Notes under the pieces: model-generated | What the model saw: only the letters and a program-made list of their open reading frames with translations | Database searches by the model: none | Told to the model about the DNA's origin: nothing | Position numbers and translations under genes: made by a program | Shown: in pieces, positions 32,404-38,626 of the stretch | How the letters are laid out: the number at the start of each line of letters is the position of its first letter | Numbering within the stretch: position 1 is the first letter of the stretch | Assembly (NCBI RefSeq): GCF_900230285.1 | Contig: NZ_OCNK01000001.1 | Span: 1,240,001 to 1,304,000, forward strand | Direction of reading: 5' to 3' | DNA: 64,000 nucleotides | Source of the DNA: Blastococcus haudaquaticus | GTDB taxonomy: Bacteria; Actinomycetota; Actinomycetes; Mycobacteriales; Geodermatophilaceae

Positions 32404-32435
32404 CCGAGGGGCGTGCGACCAGCCACTTGGTCCTC

Positions 32436-32449
32436 GTTCCACGTGGAAC
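32436..32449. promoter_or_regulatory. parS-like centromere site
   Basis: GTTCCACGTGGAAC is a perfect 14-bp palindrome and fits the chromosomal parS consensus (TGTTYCACGTGRAACA) at all core positions. It lies in the 70-bp gap between the S4 and RNB genes. parS sites cluster near the origin, and gyrB/gyrA lies 30 kb away. ParB binding is inferred from the motif. Confidence 0.75.
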
Positions 32450-32473
32450 CTCCGGTTCTGCCAGGCTGGCGGC

Positions 32474-33907
32474 ATGGTCCGTGCCCCGATCCGCGTGCCC
32501 CGGTGGCCCGAGGCCGCGACGGAGGGTCCGGACTTCGCGGCGATCCGCGCGGAGTTCGACGTCCCCGAGGAGTTCTCGGCCGACGTCCTGGCCGAGGCCG
32601 AGGACCGGGCCGCGCAGGCGCGTCTTCCCGAGCTGGACGCCACCGACGTCCCGTTCGTCACGCTCGACCCGGTCGGCAGCCGCGACCTGGACCAGGCGGT
32701 GCACCTCGCCGCCCGGGGCGACGGCTACCGGGTGAGCTACGCGATCGCCGACGTCGGGGCGGTCGTCGACCTCAAGGGTCCGCTGGACGGCGAGGCCCGC
32801 CGCCGGGGCCAGACGTTGTACAGCCCCGACCGCCGCACCCCGCTGCACCCGCCGGTGCTGAGCGAGGGCGCGGCCAGCCTCCTCGCCGACCAGCTCCGCG
32901 CGGCGGCCCTCTGGACGATCGACCTGGACGCCGACGGCGAGCCGGTCCGGGTCGAGCTGCGCCGCGCGCGGGTGCGCAGTCGCGCCCAGCTCGACTACCC
33001 CTCCGTGCAGGCGCAGGCCGACGCCGGGACGCTGCCCGAGCCGCTCGCGCTGCTGCCCGAGGTGGGCGCGCTCCTGCAGCGACGGGCCACCGACCGGGGT
33101 GCCATCGAGCTCGGCACGCCGGACCAGGAGGTGGTCGCGACGCCGGACGGCTGGACGCTGGCGTTCCGCGGCGACCTCCCCGTCGAGGGATGGAACGCCG
33201 AGATCTCGCTGCTCACCGGCCGGTGCGCCGCCGGCCTGATGCTCGACGGCGGCGTGGGGCTGCTCCGCACGCTGCCGCCCGCCCCGCCGCAGGACGTCGC
33301 CCGGCTGCGGCAGCTCGCGCCCGCGCTCGGTGTGGACTGGCACGAGGGCCGGGCCCCGGGCGAGGTGATCGCGGGCCTCGACCCCACTCGTCCCGGCCAT
33401 GCCGCCTTCCTGGAGGAGGCCGTGAGCCTGCTGCGCGGAGCCGCGTACACGGCGTTCGACGGCGCACCGCCCGAGCAGCCCGGCCACGGCGGGGTGGGGG
33501 CGCCCTACGCGCACGTCACGGCGCCGCTGCGGCGGCTGGTCGACCGCTTCGGCACCGAGGTCTGCCTCGCGCTGGCGGCGGGCCGGGAGCCGTCGGCGGA
33601 TCTCCGCGCCGCGCTGCCCGGGCTCCCGGCGCTCATGGCGGCGTCGGACCGGCGCACCCGCGAGGTCGAGCGCGCGGTGGTCGACGCCACCGAGGCCTGG
33701 CTGCTGCGCGGCCGGGTGGGGGAGACCTTCTCCGCGGTGGTGGTCGAGGCCGACGACGGACGCGGCACGGTGGTGCTCGACGACCTGGCGATCCGCGGCC
33801 GGTGCACCGGCGCGGGACTGCGCCCGGGCACCCGGGTGCGGGTCCGCCTGGAGGTGGCCGACGTCGTGGGCCGCGTCGTCCGTTTCACGCTGGAGGAGTC
33901 CGCATGA
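32474..33907 (+). CDS. RNB-domain exoribonuclease (RNase II/R family)
   Basis: A 477-residue 3'-5' exoribonuclease-like protein. The RNB active site is intact: TLDPVGSRDLDQAVHL, with the Asp residues that bind Mg, and YAIADVGAVV. The HVTAPLRRLVDRF motif matches the conserved HxTSPLRR block. It lacks N-terminal cold-shock domains, so it is shorter than RNase II/R and belongs to the compact actinobacterial group; a short S1-like barrel ends the protein. ATG at 32474. Its stop overlaps the next ATG (ATGA), implying coupling with the aminotransferase gene. Confidence 0.92.
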   Translation: MVRAPIRVPRWPEAATEGPDFAAIRAEFDVPEEFSADVLAEAEDRAAQARLPELDATDVPFVTLDPVGSRDLDQAVHLAARGDGYRVSYAIADVGAVVDLKGPLDGEARRRGQTLYSPDRRTPLHPPVLSEGAASLLADQLRAAALWTIDLDADGEPVRVELRRARVRSRAQLDYPSVQAQADAGTLPEPLALLPEVGALLQRRATDRGAIELGTPDQEVVATPDGWTLAFRGDLPVEGWNAEISLLTGRCAAGLMLDGGVGLLRTLPPAPPQDVARLRQLAPALGVDWHEGRAPGEVIAGLDPTRPGHAAFLEEAVSLLRGAAYTAFDGAPPEQPGHGGVGAPYAHVTAPLRRLVDRFGTEVCLALAAGREPSADLRAALPGLPALMAASDRRTREVERAVVDATEAWLLRGRVGETFSAVVVEADDGRGTVVLDDLAIRGRCTGAGLRPGTRVRVRLEVADVVGRVVRFTLEESA

Positions 33908-35088
33908 CGCGGGTTCCCTACCTGTCCGCCCGCCTGCAGGGCTTCGGGACGACGGTCTTCGCCGAGATGAGCGCGCTGGCGGTGGCCACCGGCTCGGTGA
34001 ACCTCGGCCAGGGGTTCCCCGACTACCCCGGCCCGCCCGAGGTCCTCGACGTGGCCCGCGCCGCCATCGGCACCGCCGCCGACCAGTACCCGCCCGGTCC
34101 CGGCACCCCGGAGCTGCGGACGGCGGTGGCCGCCCACGTGCAGCGTTTCCGGGGGAGGGCCTACGACGCCGACACGGAGGTCCTGGTCACCGCCGGGGCG
34201 ACCGAGGCCTTGTCGGCGGCGCTGCTCGCCCTGCTGGAGACCGGCGACGAGGTCGTCCTCTTCGAGCCGATGTACGACTGCTACGCGGCGGGCATCGCGA
34301 TGGCCGGCGGCGTGGCCCGGCCGGTGCCGTTGCACCCGCCGGCCGGCGGCGTCGGGACCTGGACCTTCGACCCGGAGGCGCTGCGCGCGGCGATCACCCC
34401 GCGCACCCGCATGCTCCTGCTGAACACCCCGCACAACCCCACCGGGAAGGTGTTCACGGAGGAGGAGCTGGAGCTCCTGGCCGGGCACGTCCTCGAGCAC
34501 GACCTCCTGGTCCTCACCGACGAGGTGTACGAGCACCTGGTCTTCGACGGCACCCGGCACCGGTCGATCGCCGACGTCCCCGGCCTGCGGGACCGGACGC
34601 TGGTCGTCGGGAGCGCCGGCAAGACCTTCAACGTCACCGGCTGGAAGATCGGCTGGATCTGCGGCCCTGCCCCGCTCGTCTCCGCCGTCCGCACGGCCAA
34701 GCAGTTCCTCACCTTCGTCAACGGTGGCCCGTTCCAGCCGGCCGTCGCCGCCGGGCTGGCGCTGCCGGACGCCTATTTCACCGGGCTGGCACAGGACCTG
34801 CAGTACCGCCGGGACGTGCTCGTGCAGGGGCTGGCCGAGGCGGGGCTGCCGGTGATCAGCCCGGAGGCGACCTACTTCGCGACCGTGGACGTCCGCCCGG
34901 TGCAGCCCGACGGCGACGGGCTGGCGTTCTGCCGTGCCCTGCCCGAGCGGGCCGGGGTGGTGGGGGTGCCGACCGGGGTGTTCTACGACCCGGAGCACGC
35001 GCACCTGGGCCGCCACCTGGTGCGGTTCGCCTTCTGCAAGAGCGACGCGGTCCTGGGCGATGCGGTGGAACGGCTGAGGAGGCTCTGA
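33904..35088 (+). CDS. class I/II PLP aminotransferase (DapC / glutamine-transaminase-like)
   Basis: A 394-residue fold-type I aminotransferase. NLGQGFPDYPGPPEV is the substrate-pocket motif of the kynurenine/methionine (YbdL) group; NTPHNPTGKVF, LTDEVYEHLVFD and the PLP lysine in SAGKTFNVTGWKIGW are all present. Annotation as N-succinyldiaminopimelate aminotransferase is common for such proteins. The next gene is an omega-amidase-like hydrolase, a pairing that points to glutamine-dependent transamination of keto acids such as the methionine keto acid. It starts at ATG overlapping the RNB stop. Confidence 0.92.
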   Translation: MTRVPYLSARLQGFGTTVFAEMSALAVATGSVNLGQGFPDYPGPPEVLDVARAAIGTAADQYPPGPGTPELRTAVAAHVQRFRGRAYDADTEVLVTAGATEALSAALLALLETGDEVVLFEPMYDCYAAGIAMAGGVARPVPLHPPAGGVGTWTFDPEALRAAITPRTRMLLLNTPHNPTGKVFTEEELELLAGHVLEHDLLVLTDEVYEHLVFDGTRHRSIADVPGLRDRTLVVGSAGKTFNVTGWKIGWICGPAPLVSAVRTAKQFLTFVNGGPFQPAVAAGLALPDAYFTGLAQDLQYRRDVLVQGLAEAGLPVISPEATYFATVDVRPVQPDGDGLAFCRALPERAGVVGVPTGVFYDPEHAHLGRHLVRFAFCKSDAVLGDAVERLRRL

Positions 35089-35101
35089 TGAGGTGGGTGC
35101 A

Positions 35102-35866
35102 GTGAGGATCGCCGCGGTGCAGCACGACATCGTCTGGGAGGACCGGGACGCCAATTTCGCCCGGCTGGCCCCCCAGGTGGCCCGGGCGGTCGGGGCGGGT
35201 GCGGAGCTGGTGCTGCTCACCGAGACCTTCAGCACCGGGTTCTCGATGACGCCAGGCATCGGCGAGCCGGAGGGCGGCCCGTCGGCGCAGTTCCTCGCGG
35301 GCCAAGCGGCCGAGCACGGCGTGTGGGTGGGCGGCACGTGCCCGGAGATCGCCGACGGGCAGCAGCTGCCCTACAACTCGTTCGTCCTCGCCGGGCCCGA
35401 CGGCACCGTCCACCGCTACCGCAAGCTGCACCCGTTCACCCACGCCGGCGAGCACGAGCGGTTCCGGGCCGGGGAGGGGCCGGTGACCCTGGACGTCGGC
35501 GGGCTCCGCATCACCCCGTTCGTCTGCTACGACCTGCGCTTCGCCGACGTGTTCTGGACGGCGGCGCCGGCCACCGACGTCTACCTGGTCCCCGCCAACT
35601 GGCCCAGCCCCCGGCGACTGCACTGGCAGACGCTGCTGCAGGCGCGGGCCATCGAGAACCAGGCCTACGTCGTGGGGTGCAACCGGGTGGGGACGGCCGG
35701 CGACGGCACCGAGCACGCCGGGGACAGCCGGATCGTGAGCCCCATGGGGGAGCTGCTGGCGACGGCGGCGGGCGTCGAGACGATCGTGCTGGCCGACGTC
35801 GACGCCGCCGAGGTGACGGCGACCCGCGACCGGCTGCGCTTCATCCCCGACCGCCGGGGGAGCTGA
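35102..35866 (+). CDS. carbon-nitrogen hydrolase (nitrilase superfamily, omega-amidase-like)
   Basis: A 254-residue amidase. The nitrilase triad is visible: Glu in LTETFSTGF, Lys in YRKLHPF, Cys in FVCYDLRFADVFW. The last block matches YafV/Nit2 omega-amidases, which hydrolyse alpha-ketoglutaramate. GTG 35102 is preceded by AGGTGG; a GTG at 35093 would add three residues. It is directly downstream of a glutamine-transaminase-like gene, so it likely removes the product of that reaction. Confidence 0.9.
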   Translation: MRIAAVQHDIVWEDRDANFARLAPQVARAVGAGAELVLLTETFSTGFSMTPGIGEPEGGPSAQFLAGQAAEHGVWVGGTCPEIADGQQLPYNSFVLAGPDGTVHRYRKLHPFTHAGEHERFRAGEGPVTLDVGGLRITPFVCYDLRFADVFWTAAPATDVYLVPANWPSPRRLHWQTLLQARAIENQAYVVGCNRVGTAGDGTEHAGDSRIVSPMGELLATAAGVETIVLADVDAAEVTATRDRLRFIPDRRGS

Positions 35867-36004
35867 CCCCGCCGCCGACCTCACCTCGCGACCGCCGTCC
35901 CCGTGCTCCGGCGCGAGGACGGCGACCTCGCGGTCGGGACGGCGAGCGTGGGGGGCACGGACGGGGACTCCCGCCGGAAACGTCCGGGCCCTAGCGTTCC
36001 CCCG

Positions 36005-38626
36005 GTGACCACCCTGACCGGTGCGAGCCGCACCGGATCCGCGCACCTCGCCGCCCAGCTCTCCGCCCCCGCCCGCCGGCTGATGCGCTCCGGCGTCGCC
36101 GGCGCCGGCCTGATGGTGCTCGCCACCCTCGTGGCGCTGGTGTGGGCGAACTCGCCCTGGGCCGACTCCTACGACGAGCTCTGGCACACCGAGCTGGCCC
36201 TCAGCTTCGGCGACTCCGCGATCGCCATGGACCTGCAGCACTGGGTCAACGACGGGCTGATGGTGTTCTTCTTCTTCCTCATCGGCATGGAGGTGCGCCG
36301 CGAGCTGTCGATGGGCGAGCTGGTGCAGCGCAGCCGGCTCACCATCCCGACGCTCGCGGCGGTCGCCGGCCTGGTGATCCCGTCGCTGCTCTACCTGGCC
36401 ATCAACGCCGGCGGCGACGGCGCGGTGGGCTGGGGCATCCCGATGGCCACCGACACCGCCTTCGTGCTCGGCGCGCTGGCGATCTTCGGCCGCCACACGC
36501 CCATACAGCTGCGGGTCTTCCTGCTGTCGCTGTCGGTGGTCGACGACATCGGCGCGCTGAGCGCGATCGCGATCTTCTACTCCGACGAGATCGATCTCCT
36601 CGCCCTGGCGATCGCCGGCCTCTGCGTCCTGGCCTTCATCGGGCTGTCCCGGATGCAGGTCTGGCGGGGGCCGGCCTACTTCGCCGTCGGCGCGGTGATG
36701 TGGGTGGCGATGTACGAGTCGGGCGTGCACGCCACCATCGGCGGCGTCGTCCTGGGGCTGCTGGTCAGCGCCTACCCCCCGCGCCGGGCCGAGGTCGAGC
36801 GGGCCGGGTCGCTGGCCCGGGCGTTCCGCCAGTCACCGGAGCCCTCCCTGGCCCGCGAGGCCAAGCTGTCGGTGGAGCGCGCGATCTCGCCCAACGAGCG
36901 CATCGGCGCGGTCCTCGTGCCGTGGAGCAGTTACGTCGTCGTGCCGGTGTTCGCCCTCGCCAACGCCGGGGTGCGCATCGACGGCACGCTGCTGGAGCGC
37001 GCGCTCACCTCGCCGGTGACCATCGGCGTCTTCGTCGGGCTCGCGGTGGGCAAGCTGCTCGGCGTCGGGCTGGCCGCGGCGCTCGCCGTCCGGCTGCGGC
37101 TCGGCGTCCTCCCGCCCGGGGTCGGCCTCGGCCACGTGTGGAGCGGCGCGGCCCTGACCGGCCTGGGCTTCACCGTCTCGCTGTTCGTCACCGACCTCGC
37201 CTTCGACGACGAGCGGCTCCGCGAGGAGGCGACCATCGGCATCCTCGCCGCCGCCGTGGTCTCCACCGCCCTGGGCGCGCTGTTCTTCCGCGTGCTGGGC
37301 CGGCGCAGCAGCGCCCCCGAGCGGCCGGTCGAGCTCGACCCGCCCGTGGACCCCGCCGTCGACCACGTCCGCGGCCCGGTCGACGCCCCGCTCACCCTCG
37401 TCGAGTACGGCGACATGGAGTGCCCCTTCTGCGGGCGGGCGACCGGCGTGGTGAGCGAGCTGCGCGGGCGCTTCGGCGACGACCTGCGCTACGTCTTCCG
37501 GCACCTGCCGCTGGTGGAGCTGCACCCGCACGCCCAGCTCGCCGCCGAGGCGACCGAGGCGGCCGGCGCCCAGGGCAGGTTCTGGGAGATGCACGACAAG
37601 CTGTTCGCCCACCAGGAGGAGCTGGAGGCGACCGACCTCCTCGACCACGCCTCGGCCCTCGGGCTCGACCTCGAGCGGTTCGCCCGCGAGCTGGGCGACG
37701 GCACCCACGCGCCGCGCATCCGGGACGACGTGGCCGGGGCGGAGGCGAGCGGGGTGGAGGGCACACCGACGTTCTTCGTCAACGGCGTCCGGCACAGTGG
37801 CCGCGCCGGCACCGACGAACTGGCGGCGGCCCTGCTGCGCACGGATCCGCGCGGCACTCCGGTGGAGCGCTCGGTGGCCGGGCCCACGCCAGCCCCGGGA
37901 CCGCGCCCGCCGACCCCGCTCTCCCCACCGGCGAGGCTGCCCGCGGTCGAGGGGCTGGCGGAGACCGAGGACCCGAGCGGCGCCTCACCGCGGCTGGACG
38001 ACCGCCAGCTCGCCGTCCTCCGCCGGGCGGGCCGCCGGCGCACGACGACGGGGGGCGAGGTCCTGGTCCAGGGCGGGGCCAGCGAGTGGGACTTCGTCGT
38101 GGTCCTCGACGGCACCGTCGCGGTCCTCGAGGACCCCGGTCCCGGCGACGGCGACCGGCCGCGCGTGGTCATGGTCGTCGGGCCCGGGCGGTTCCTGGGT
38201 GGGCTCAACATGCTGGCCGGCCAGCGCGCCGTGCGGACGGTGGTCGCCGCGGCTCCCGGGACGGTGGTCACGCTGAGCGTGCAGCGCCTGCGTCAGGTGA
38301 TGAGCGAGGACCGGGAGCTGGCCGACCTCATCATGCGGTCGTTCCTGCTGCGCCGGGCGATGCTGATCGGCAAGGCGACCGGGATCCGCGTCGTCGGGGA
38401 CCGTTCGTGGCCCGCCAGCGTCCAGCTGCAGGCCGTCCTGGACGAGCACGGCATCGCCCACCAGTGGCTGGACCCGGCCGAGCACGAGGCCGCCCGGGCG
38501 GTGCTCGCCGAGAACGCCACCCTGGACGAGGAGCGGCCGGTCGTCGTCGCCTCGGACGGGCGGGTCCTGGTCGACCCCGCGCCCGACGAGGTGCTTCGGG
38601 CGGCAGGGGTGGATCGGGTCGGCTGA
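36005..38626 (+). CDS. nhaA: NhaA antiporter fused to DsbA-like, cNMP-binding and glutaredoxin-like domains
   Basis: An 873-residue fusion. Residues 1 to about 440 form a NhaA Na+/H+ antiporter: FFLIGMEVRRELSMGEL, MATDTAFVLGALAIFG and SVVDDIGALSAIAIF with the paired Asp of the ion site. A DsbA-type thioredoxin domain follows (about 455-625) with CPFC at 473-476 and the cis-Pro loop EGTPTFFVNG. A Pro-rich linker leads to a cyclic-nucleotide-binding-like domain (about 665-790; ...GRFLGGLNMLAGQRAVRT...), then a C-terminal module resembling the glutaredoxin-like domain in cNMP-linked thioredoxin reductases (GIRVVGDRSWPAS...). NhaA-DsbA fusions are known; the last two domains are unusual. Start is GTG. 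Confidence 0.9.
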   Translation: MTTLTGASRTGSAHLAAQLSAPARRLMRSGVAGAGLMVLATLVALVWANSPWADSYDELWHTELALSFGDSAIAMDLQHWVNDGLMVFFFFLIGMEVRRELSMGELVQRSRLTIPTLAAVAGLVIPSLLYLAINAGGDGAVGWGIPMATDTAFVLGALAIFGRHTPIQLRVFLLSLSVVDDIGALSAIAIFYSDEIDLLALAIAGLCVLAFIGLSRMQVWRGPAYFAVGAVMWVAMYESGVHATIGGVVLGLLVSAYPPRRAEVERAGSLARAFRQSPEPSLAREAKLSVERAISPNERIGAVLVPWSSYVVVPVFALANAGVRIDGTLLERALTSPVTIGVFVGLAVGKLLGVGLAAALAVRLRLGVLPPGVGLGHVWSGAALTGLGFTVSLFVTDLAFDDERLREEATIGILAAAVVSTALGALFFRVLGRRSSAPERPVELDPPVDPAVDHVRGPVDAPLTLVEYGDMECPFCGRATGVVSELRGRFGDDLRYVFRHLPLVELHPHAQLAAEATEAAGAQGRFWEMHDKLFAHQEELEATDLLDHASALGLDLERFARELGDGTHAPRIRDDVAGAEASGVEGTPTFFVNGVRHSGRAGTDELAAALLRTDPRGTPVERSVAGPTPAPGPRPPTPLSPPARLPAVEGLAETEDPSGASPRLDDRQLAVLRRAGRRRTTTGGEVLVQGGASEWDFVVVLDGTVAVLEDPGPGDGDRPRVVMVVGPGRFLGGLNMLAGQRAVRTVVAAAPGTVVTLSVQRLRQVMSEDRELADLIMRSFLLRRAMLIGKATGIRVVGDRSWPASVQLQAVLDEHGIAHQWLDPAEHEAARAVLAENATLDEERPVVVASDGRVLVDPAPDEVLRAAGVDRVG

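Follow-up and report, generated by a model that had tools for sequence, protein, structure and literature searches.

The Kef systems shield Gram-negative bacteria from electrophiles through glutathione-gated H+ influx. Another architecture, the fusion of an NhaA antiporter with a DsbA-like domain, is also already known. In the passages cited here (PMC10224563, PMC11150392), Kef antiporters are described as thiol-gated, with a flavoprotein gene in the same operon that overlaps by a few bases, and acidification is described as protective. A passage of one of these papers, a review, states that most Gram-positive bacteria produce no glutathione and that other thiols might perhaps substitute for it (PMC10224563). 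The sperm Na+/H+ exchanger SLC9C1, as presented in the cited part of its paper (PMC6052114), is a eukaryotic SLC9 protein with a voltage sensor and a cyclic-nucleotide-binding (cNMP) domain whose pocket responds to cAMP, and that part mentions no thiol domain.

In the window analysed here (64,000 nucleotides of contig NZ_OCNK01000001.1, from the 4.5 Mb genome of the soil actinobacterium Blastococcus haudaquaticus), one gene on the + strand (36005 to 38626; GTG start, 873 codons) joins an NhaA antiporter domain, a DsbA-like thioredoxin domain, a cNMP-fold domain and a mycoredoxin/glutaredoxin (Grx)-like domain. It translates into 873 residues with a single stop, at the end, which bears out the single continuous frame described in the initial annotation. 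Pfam scored Na_H_antiport_1 (438 bits), Thioredoxin_4 (69), DSBA (56) and cNMP_binding (31.5, cut-off 27.5) above cut-off, and Pfam, a family profile compared with mycoredoxin-1 (PDB 2lqo) and a fold model agree on the four modules that had been proposed. This joining of NhaA to a thiol-active domain and a flavoenzyme front end is real and conserved. As in KefC-KefF and KefB-KefG, according to passages of PMC10224563 and PMC11150392, an antiporter would be combined with a C-terminal cytosolic sensing domain and a soluble flavoprotein partner, while overlapping genes are found here in some relatives only. Unlike Kef, the antiporter is an NhaA rather than a CPA2 protein, there is no KefF, glutathione is not the expected thiol and the gating is putative. 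The Pfam scan of the window protein gave no match to an RCK/KTN domain, which places it outside the Kef family and makes the comparison one of working principle. With SLC9C1, in the part of that paper cited (PMC6052114), it shares a Na+/H+ exchanger and a cNMP-fold domain.

An upstream GTG at 35903 lies 34 codons before 36005, and the window frame stays open up to there. The start at 36005 is the likelier one, because the frame of one ortholog (L034) closes 16 codons upstream and a TAnnnT box precedes the GTG; this box stands exactly 7 nt 5' of the GTG in 5/15 Blastococcus/Modestobacter loci including the window, and is absent in the other 10. In the window it reads TAGCGT (35992 to 35997, +), a candidate -10 box at what we take to be leaderless-type spacing. 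The full-length model of the fusion protein reached a pLDDT of only 46.8, so no domain contacts are predicted from it.

The NhaA domain (residues 21-430; 36065 to 37294, +) passed both family thresholds, with 329.3 against 254 bits for TIGR00773 (NCBIfam) and 438.4 against 23.5 for PF06965 (Pfam). In the alignment to E. coli NhaA (1zcd), D65, E78, R81, E82, D133, D163, D164, H225 and K300 are conserved, and E252, H253 and H256 are replaced by G, A and V in the window protein. With the roles that we presume for these residues, the antiport residues are intact and the protein is predicted to be a working NhaA antiporter. The twelve-helix NhaA terminates in the cytosol, and past residue 433 the hydropathy profile contains no membrane segment except a marginal stretch at 721-739 (1.32 against a threshold of 1.3), which lies inside the cNMP fold; the tail should therefore be cytosolic.

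The DsbA-like domain (residues 449-612; 37349 to 37840, +) was assigned by Pfam match. Both cysteines of its CPFC active site (C473/C476; 37421 to 37432, +) are present in 35/35 aligned fusions, and P588, presumably the cis-proline, is likewise invariant, which gives the domain the CxxC and cis-Pro loop of DsbA-like oxidoreductases. It has the highest share of invariant columns (37%), compared with 33, 13 and 6% for the remaining three domains. Downstream of it, one cysteine each was found in 4/35 rows, with none in the Grx part. Judged from the alignment, the DsbA dithiol is the sole conserved candidate site of thiol chemistry in the fusion protein, and the coupling of transport to thiol state suggested by the initial annotation is plausible.

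The tail opens with a leader motif, AETEDPSGASPRL (37958 to 37996, +), a variant of the ETPDxxGA[FY]PRL motif that opens related cNMP-Grx flavoproteins, and continues with the cNMP-fold domain (residues 664-791; 37994 to 38377, +), which is supported by Pfam, the fold model and profiles. An AlphaFold2 model of residues 665-873 (pLDDT 77.6, pTM 0.55) is beta-rich in its first part, and the 50 Foldseek matches listed of 1460 are all of CRP/cNMP type. A tail profile of 18 sequences matches the cNMP domains of protein kinase A, and its end matches 2lqo (E 7e-4). The equivalent of the phosphate-binding cassette, RFLGGLNMLAGQRAVRTVVA (38189 to 38248, +), carries G733 in place of Glu and A742 in place of Arg. 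The window's lineage has A or P at the Arg position in 18/18 proteins, and the other lineage has V in 17/17; the Glu position is G in the former 18/18 and E in the latter 17/17. The Glu/Arg cassette of a cyclic-nucleotide-binding domain is thus incomplete in 35/35 fusions. Among 32 related flavoproteins, Glu is retained in 27 and Arg in one, and the partner kinase described below lacks both in its own cNMP part (8/8).

These residues bear on the possibility of a cyclic-nucleotide-gated antiporter like SLC9C1, in which cAMP or cGMP binding to the cNMP domain would gate exchange. The CRP-like fold, the Pfam cNMP_binding match over cut-off and the domain of SLC9C1 itself (PMC6052114, in the part cited) speak for it, but the phosphate-binding Arg is lost throughout the fusions and the Glu throughout the window's lineage, and the same part of that paper reports that R1053Q in the cNMP domain of SLC9C1 abolishes the cAMP shift (PMC6052114). 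Since the pocket is without its phosphate-binding Arg, cAMP coupling of the antiporter is unlikely and the earlier proposal of a nucleotide ligand is doubtful; we demoted cyclic-nucleotide gating and consider it a very improbable account of the protein.

The C-terminal domain (residues 792-873; 38378 to 38623, +) is a mycoredoxin/glutaredoxin-like domain without cysteine. For the window protein alone, Pfam Glutaredoxin (13.2 against a cut-off of 22.9) and NCBIfam mycoredoxin (E 0.011 at the C-terminal end) stayed under threshold. A profile built from 27 Grx-like modules of both fusions and flavoproteins matched mycobacterial mycoredoxin-1 (PDB 2lqo) with an E value of 1.6e-6. The second part of the 665-873 model runs strand-helix-strand-helix-strand-strand-helix, an order that we take to be the glutaredoxin fold. 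Profile searches and structure prediction thus support both modules placed in the tail by the initial annotation. The protein shares fold and sequence profile with mycoredoxin-1 and differs from it at the active site, where CGYC is replaced by WPAS in the window (38408 to 38419, +; alignments to 2lqo) and by S-P-[DE]-[ST] in 13/17 g5-type rows; no Cys occurs in the domain in 35/35 fusions. The former description of three redox/regulatory modules therefore holds for the DsbA domain with its CPFC, and fails for the Grx part, which is Cys-less, and for the cNMP part, which has lost its Arg. That fusion and flavoprotein both carry a Grx-like module without Cys suggests docking.

In searches that score few candidates per genome and may therefore miss single cases, the DsbA-cNMP-Grx model was matched end to end without a stop at 56 loci in 55/112 genomes of the family; 57/112 are without an unbroken fusion, and in G010 the three domains are present but in two frames. 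In the same kind of search, 298 genomes of the order yielded end-to-end matches at 27 loci in 26 genomes, every one from Geodermatophilaceae (the widest other match reaching both parts, in G658, covers model positions 110-421), and 396 genomes of the phylum yielded, besides the window's own, no spanning match in the 395 others among the matches listed. Of the named relatives found, Blastococcus litoris is the closest, at 86% in the tail. Searches of viral contigs found no relatives. Plasmids gave 24 matching records, each below 60% identity; among the 15 matches listed, 13 are annotated flavoproteins and two are featureless. A Blastococcus-type fusion 86% identical to that of the window was also found under the label 'Bacillus sp. 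AZ43' (UNVERIFIED_ORG; L035, SPQJ01000028.1), and this label looks wrong. Fusions of both lineages described below occur in one genome, G044 (contigs C40 and C44; L065, L022).

Of the 38 loci read over the whole gene (the window, L034-L067 and L158-L160), 36 carry all four domains in one unbroken frame, and the two exceptions, L037 and L050, have their NhaA part divided between frames. A further copy (L146) occupies three frames. Because orthologs retain the unbroken frame, a stop, frameshift or sequencing artefact between the domains, raised earlier as a possible objection, was rejected. In four comparisons among Blastococcus-type orthologs, dN/dS was 0.07-0.15 for DsbA, 0.12-0.15 for NhaA, 0.16-0.34 for cNMP and 0.22-0.41 for Grx, and purifying selection acts on all four domains. 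These values weigh against the idea that the genes fused by accident and that the C-terminal modules, now without a role, are a decaying passenger. Although the tail diverges fastest and its canonical Cys and Arg are gone, its dN/dS of 0.16-0.41, the retention of the DsbA-to-Grx frame across about half of the family and the age of the losses, which are older than the fusion, make a mere passenger highly unlikely. Arg is missing in 31/32 related flavoproteins and most of their Grx parts are without Cys, and therefore the losses predate the fusion.

From the phylum match list, 40 loci were picked, 20 of DsbA type and 20 of cNMP-Grx type. All 20 DsbA-type picks encode two-domain NhaA-DsbA proteins in a single frame, so that the fusions known from actinobacteria are common here as well, and an FAD domain follows in 20/20 cNMP-Grx picks (in L111 in another frame). 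At one locus (L119) the two kinds lie within 3 kb on opposite strands. Like the two-domain proteins of Actinomycetota, the window protein has NhaA and then, in the same frame, a DsbA-like domain with CxxC, and it adds the leader motif, cNMP and Grx-like modules; no such tail was found in the two-domain proteins. With the cNMP-Grx-FAD flavoproteins it shares a cNMP fold followed by a Grx-like module, whereas it has no FAD domain and carries NhaA-DsbA ahead. Fused tails open with ETPDxxGA[FY]PRL or a variant, and 14/32 distinct flavoproteins have this motif ahead of their cNMP module; it lies at residue ~25 of the L153 flavoprotein, near the likely N-terminus of that protein. Because the motif precedes the cNMP module in both kinds of protein and lies near the flavoprotein N-terminus, the tail was most probably acquired in one piece, from there up to the edge of the FAD domain.

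The related flavoproteins are annotated as 'FAD-dependent oxidoreductase' or 'cyclic nucleotide-binding domain-containing thioredoxin-disulfide reductase', and the view that the last two modules are the front of FAD enzymes annotated as thioredoxin reductases is borne out by their shared modules, leader motif and following FAD domain. A CxxC in the pyridine-nucleotide domain, as expected of a thioredoxin reductase, was found in 0/37 matched FAD regions (35 distinct loci). Within the family, cNMP-Grx-FAD genes occur in 1/55 fusion genomes (G542) and in 8/57 others (Fisher p 0.03; partial weaker matches in G085 and G546, both fusion genomes, were left out of the count).

The fusions form two lineages, that of Blastococcus/Modestobacter, which includes the window, and a second found mainly in genus g5; mean identity between them is 72.9% for DsbA domains and 55.5% for NhaA domains. 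In the NhaA tree, seven unfused NhaA-DsbA proteins stand beside the g5 lineage, and one fusion clade was rejected (AU p 0.017), as it was in the NhaA+DsbA tree (p 0.0027); the tree of DsbA alone did not reject a single clade (p 0.168), the tested clade having been chosen after the tree was seen. The cNMP-Grx part formed one clade in the best tree with support of 39/0 and required two changes in an earlier tree. The first three trees omit L037, L046-L048, L050, L053, L058 and L061 (broken or near-copies), repeated or unused L001-L003, L005-L033 and L071-L100, and loci without both domains in frame; the cNMP-Grx trees omit L046-L048, L058, L061 and duplicate L101, and the best tree also the long-branch flavoproteins L112, L113, L115, L116, L118 and L119. 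A single origin of the whole four-domain protein is thus opposed by the NhaA tree and not by DsbA alone. Either two independent assemblies took place, or one soluble cassette switched its NhaA. In three g5 genomes (G048, G070, G543), NhaA is joined to a clearly different, distant DsbA-like domain (L149, L150, L151), and at L147 and L148 a separate DsbA-like gene is convergent with NhaA.

The usual Blastococcus neighbours in the window's lineage are genes for an aminotransferase, a carbon-nitrogen hydrolase and a convergent PRC-DUF2382 protein. The first two (omega-amidase-like hydrolase; 32413 to 35866) lie 5' of the fusion in the window and in most Blastococcus loci analysed, and we know of no functional link between them and the fusion. 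The third is the next gene downstream, and the idea that a split-off FAD domain is encoded there was rejected.

In 8/20 g5-type loci (L051, L056-L059, L063, L066, L159), genes for a receiver-Grx-FAD flavoprotein and a cNMP-HisKA-HATPase kinase come, in this order, after the fusion gene on its strand; the kinase domains were identified by Pfam in L056 and by clustering in the others. Both junctions overlap by 4 bases (-4 nt), the first read directly in L056 and L063 and the other gene borders being approximate, from our own gene caller; in these two loci AGGAGG stands right before the overlapping flavoprotein start. An MFS gene (Pfam in L056) overlaps the fusion start at 15 of the 18 g5-type loci that were analysed; the overlap is 4 bases long at 14 of them and 13 at one, and 7/15 of these belong to the eight operon loci. 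In g5 fusion genomes G544 and G546-G548, the best receiver-Grx-FAD matches sit on other contigs. The operon is absent in the window and in the 11 window-lineage loci analysed, and the window's genome encodes flavoprotein and kinase as a pair at a separate locus on contig C5 (74% and 72% identical). There (G000:C5:462225-465316; L161 6229-9308), the flavoprotein gene, at C5:463658-465316, adjoins the kinase gene, with a zf-UBP match nearby on the other strand; the pair is an unusual two-component system in that a flavoenzyme would be its output. The same genome scores over cut-off for MshC (648.9 against 485.1 bits) and mycoredoxin (90.8 against 89.5), and its sole other mycoredoxin match is the Grx-like module of the flavoprotein (21.9 bits).

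A different neighbourhood surrounds the stand-alone cNMP-Grx-FAD gene of L153 (1954-9496), where genes for GrpE, a DnaJ-like protein (by eye), ClpB, zinc-ribbon thioredoxin 2 and zf-UBP precede it and a DUF1931 gene follows; by clustering, a similar order occurs in L068, L152 and L155-L157. The gene for the CxxC-less 'thioredoxin reductase' of L153 thus lies among chaperone genes, close to that of a genuine thioredoxin. Such clusters, with the gene two genes past that of thioredoxin 2, mean that an FAD-Grx module close to a dithiol protein recurs, and they fit the proposal that NhaA is chiefly an anchor or neighbour, that DsbA, the most conserved domain with its CPFC intact, is a membrane-tethered thiol-disulfide oxidoreductase, and that the tail docks a flavoprotein electron donor while transport is not regulated by the tail. 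NhaA is more than a bare anchor, however, because its catalytic residues are kept and it is under purifying selection (dN/dS 0.12-0.15), and we regard this proposal as unlikely while still giving it real weight.

Our tentative reading, to which we give a little less than an even chance, is that the protein exchanges Na+ for H+ as an NhaA antiporter and that its cytosolic C-terminal tail, with a flavoprotein as likely partner, controls or adjusts this transport under thiol or redox stress. It starts from the observed architecture, conservation, tail origin, operon in relatives and loss of the canonical Cys and Arg. By analogy, it would be a redox-regulated antiporter of KefC-KefF logic built from unrelated parts, in a bacterium that carries mycothiol genes. 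The DsbA domain would act as the single redox-active sensor or relay, and the degenerate cNMP and Cys-less mycoredoxin-like domains as a docking or allosteric module lifted whole from a flavoprotein. The likely partner would be the receiver-Grx-FAD flavoprotein, which has a related Cys-less Grx-like module, is paired with the cNMP-histidine kinase and is co-operonic in one lineage. Docking of this flavoprotein, or oxidation of the DsbA dithiol, may gate Na+ efflux and H+ influx and so shift cytosolic pH; the partnership, the gating and its direction are what we infer from these data. Two-domain NhaA-DsbA proteins without the tail exist, and therefore the tail is dispensable for basic function. 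Counting against a regulated antiporter, the tail is fast-evolving (invariant columns 13% and 6%), the operon occurs in a minority of loci and DsbA could perhaps be a plain enzyme. A more specific version, which we hold to be improbable, is a Kef-like thiol-gated Na+/H+ antiporter of mycothiol users, in which the Cys-less domain would sense mycothiol or an adduct, CPFC would relay the signal and the two-component-controlled, CxxC-less flavoprotein would gate transport, the whole having been assembled twice or the cassette moved.

The NhaA-DsbA core is already known, and what goes beyond it is an NhaA carrying a cNMP-Grx tail, together with the overlapping flavoprotein/kinase operon in relatives. 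Among the matches listed from the open-licence literature, no description was found of NhaA with cNMP/Grx domains, or of a role for CxxC-less thioredoxin-reductase-like proteins, on which the fusion gives a handle. The family shows that a transporter can receive the transplanted sensor front of a flavoenzyme. Through this fusion protein, Na+ or pH in the cell may be tuned by thiol chemistry. For bacteria that use mycothiol, the fusion family is a concrete candidate for a Kef-like system, and it comes with a defined partner operon and few testable residues.
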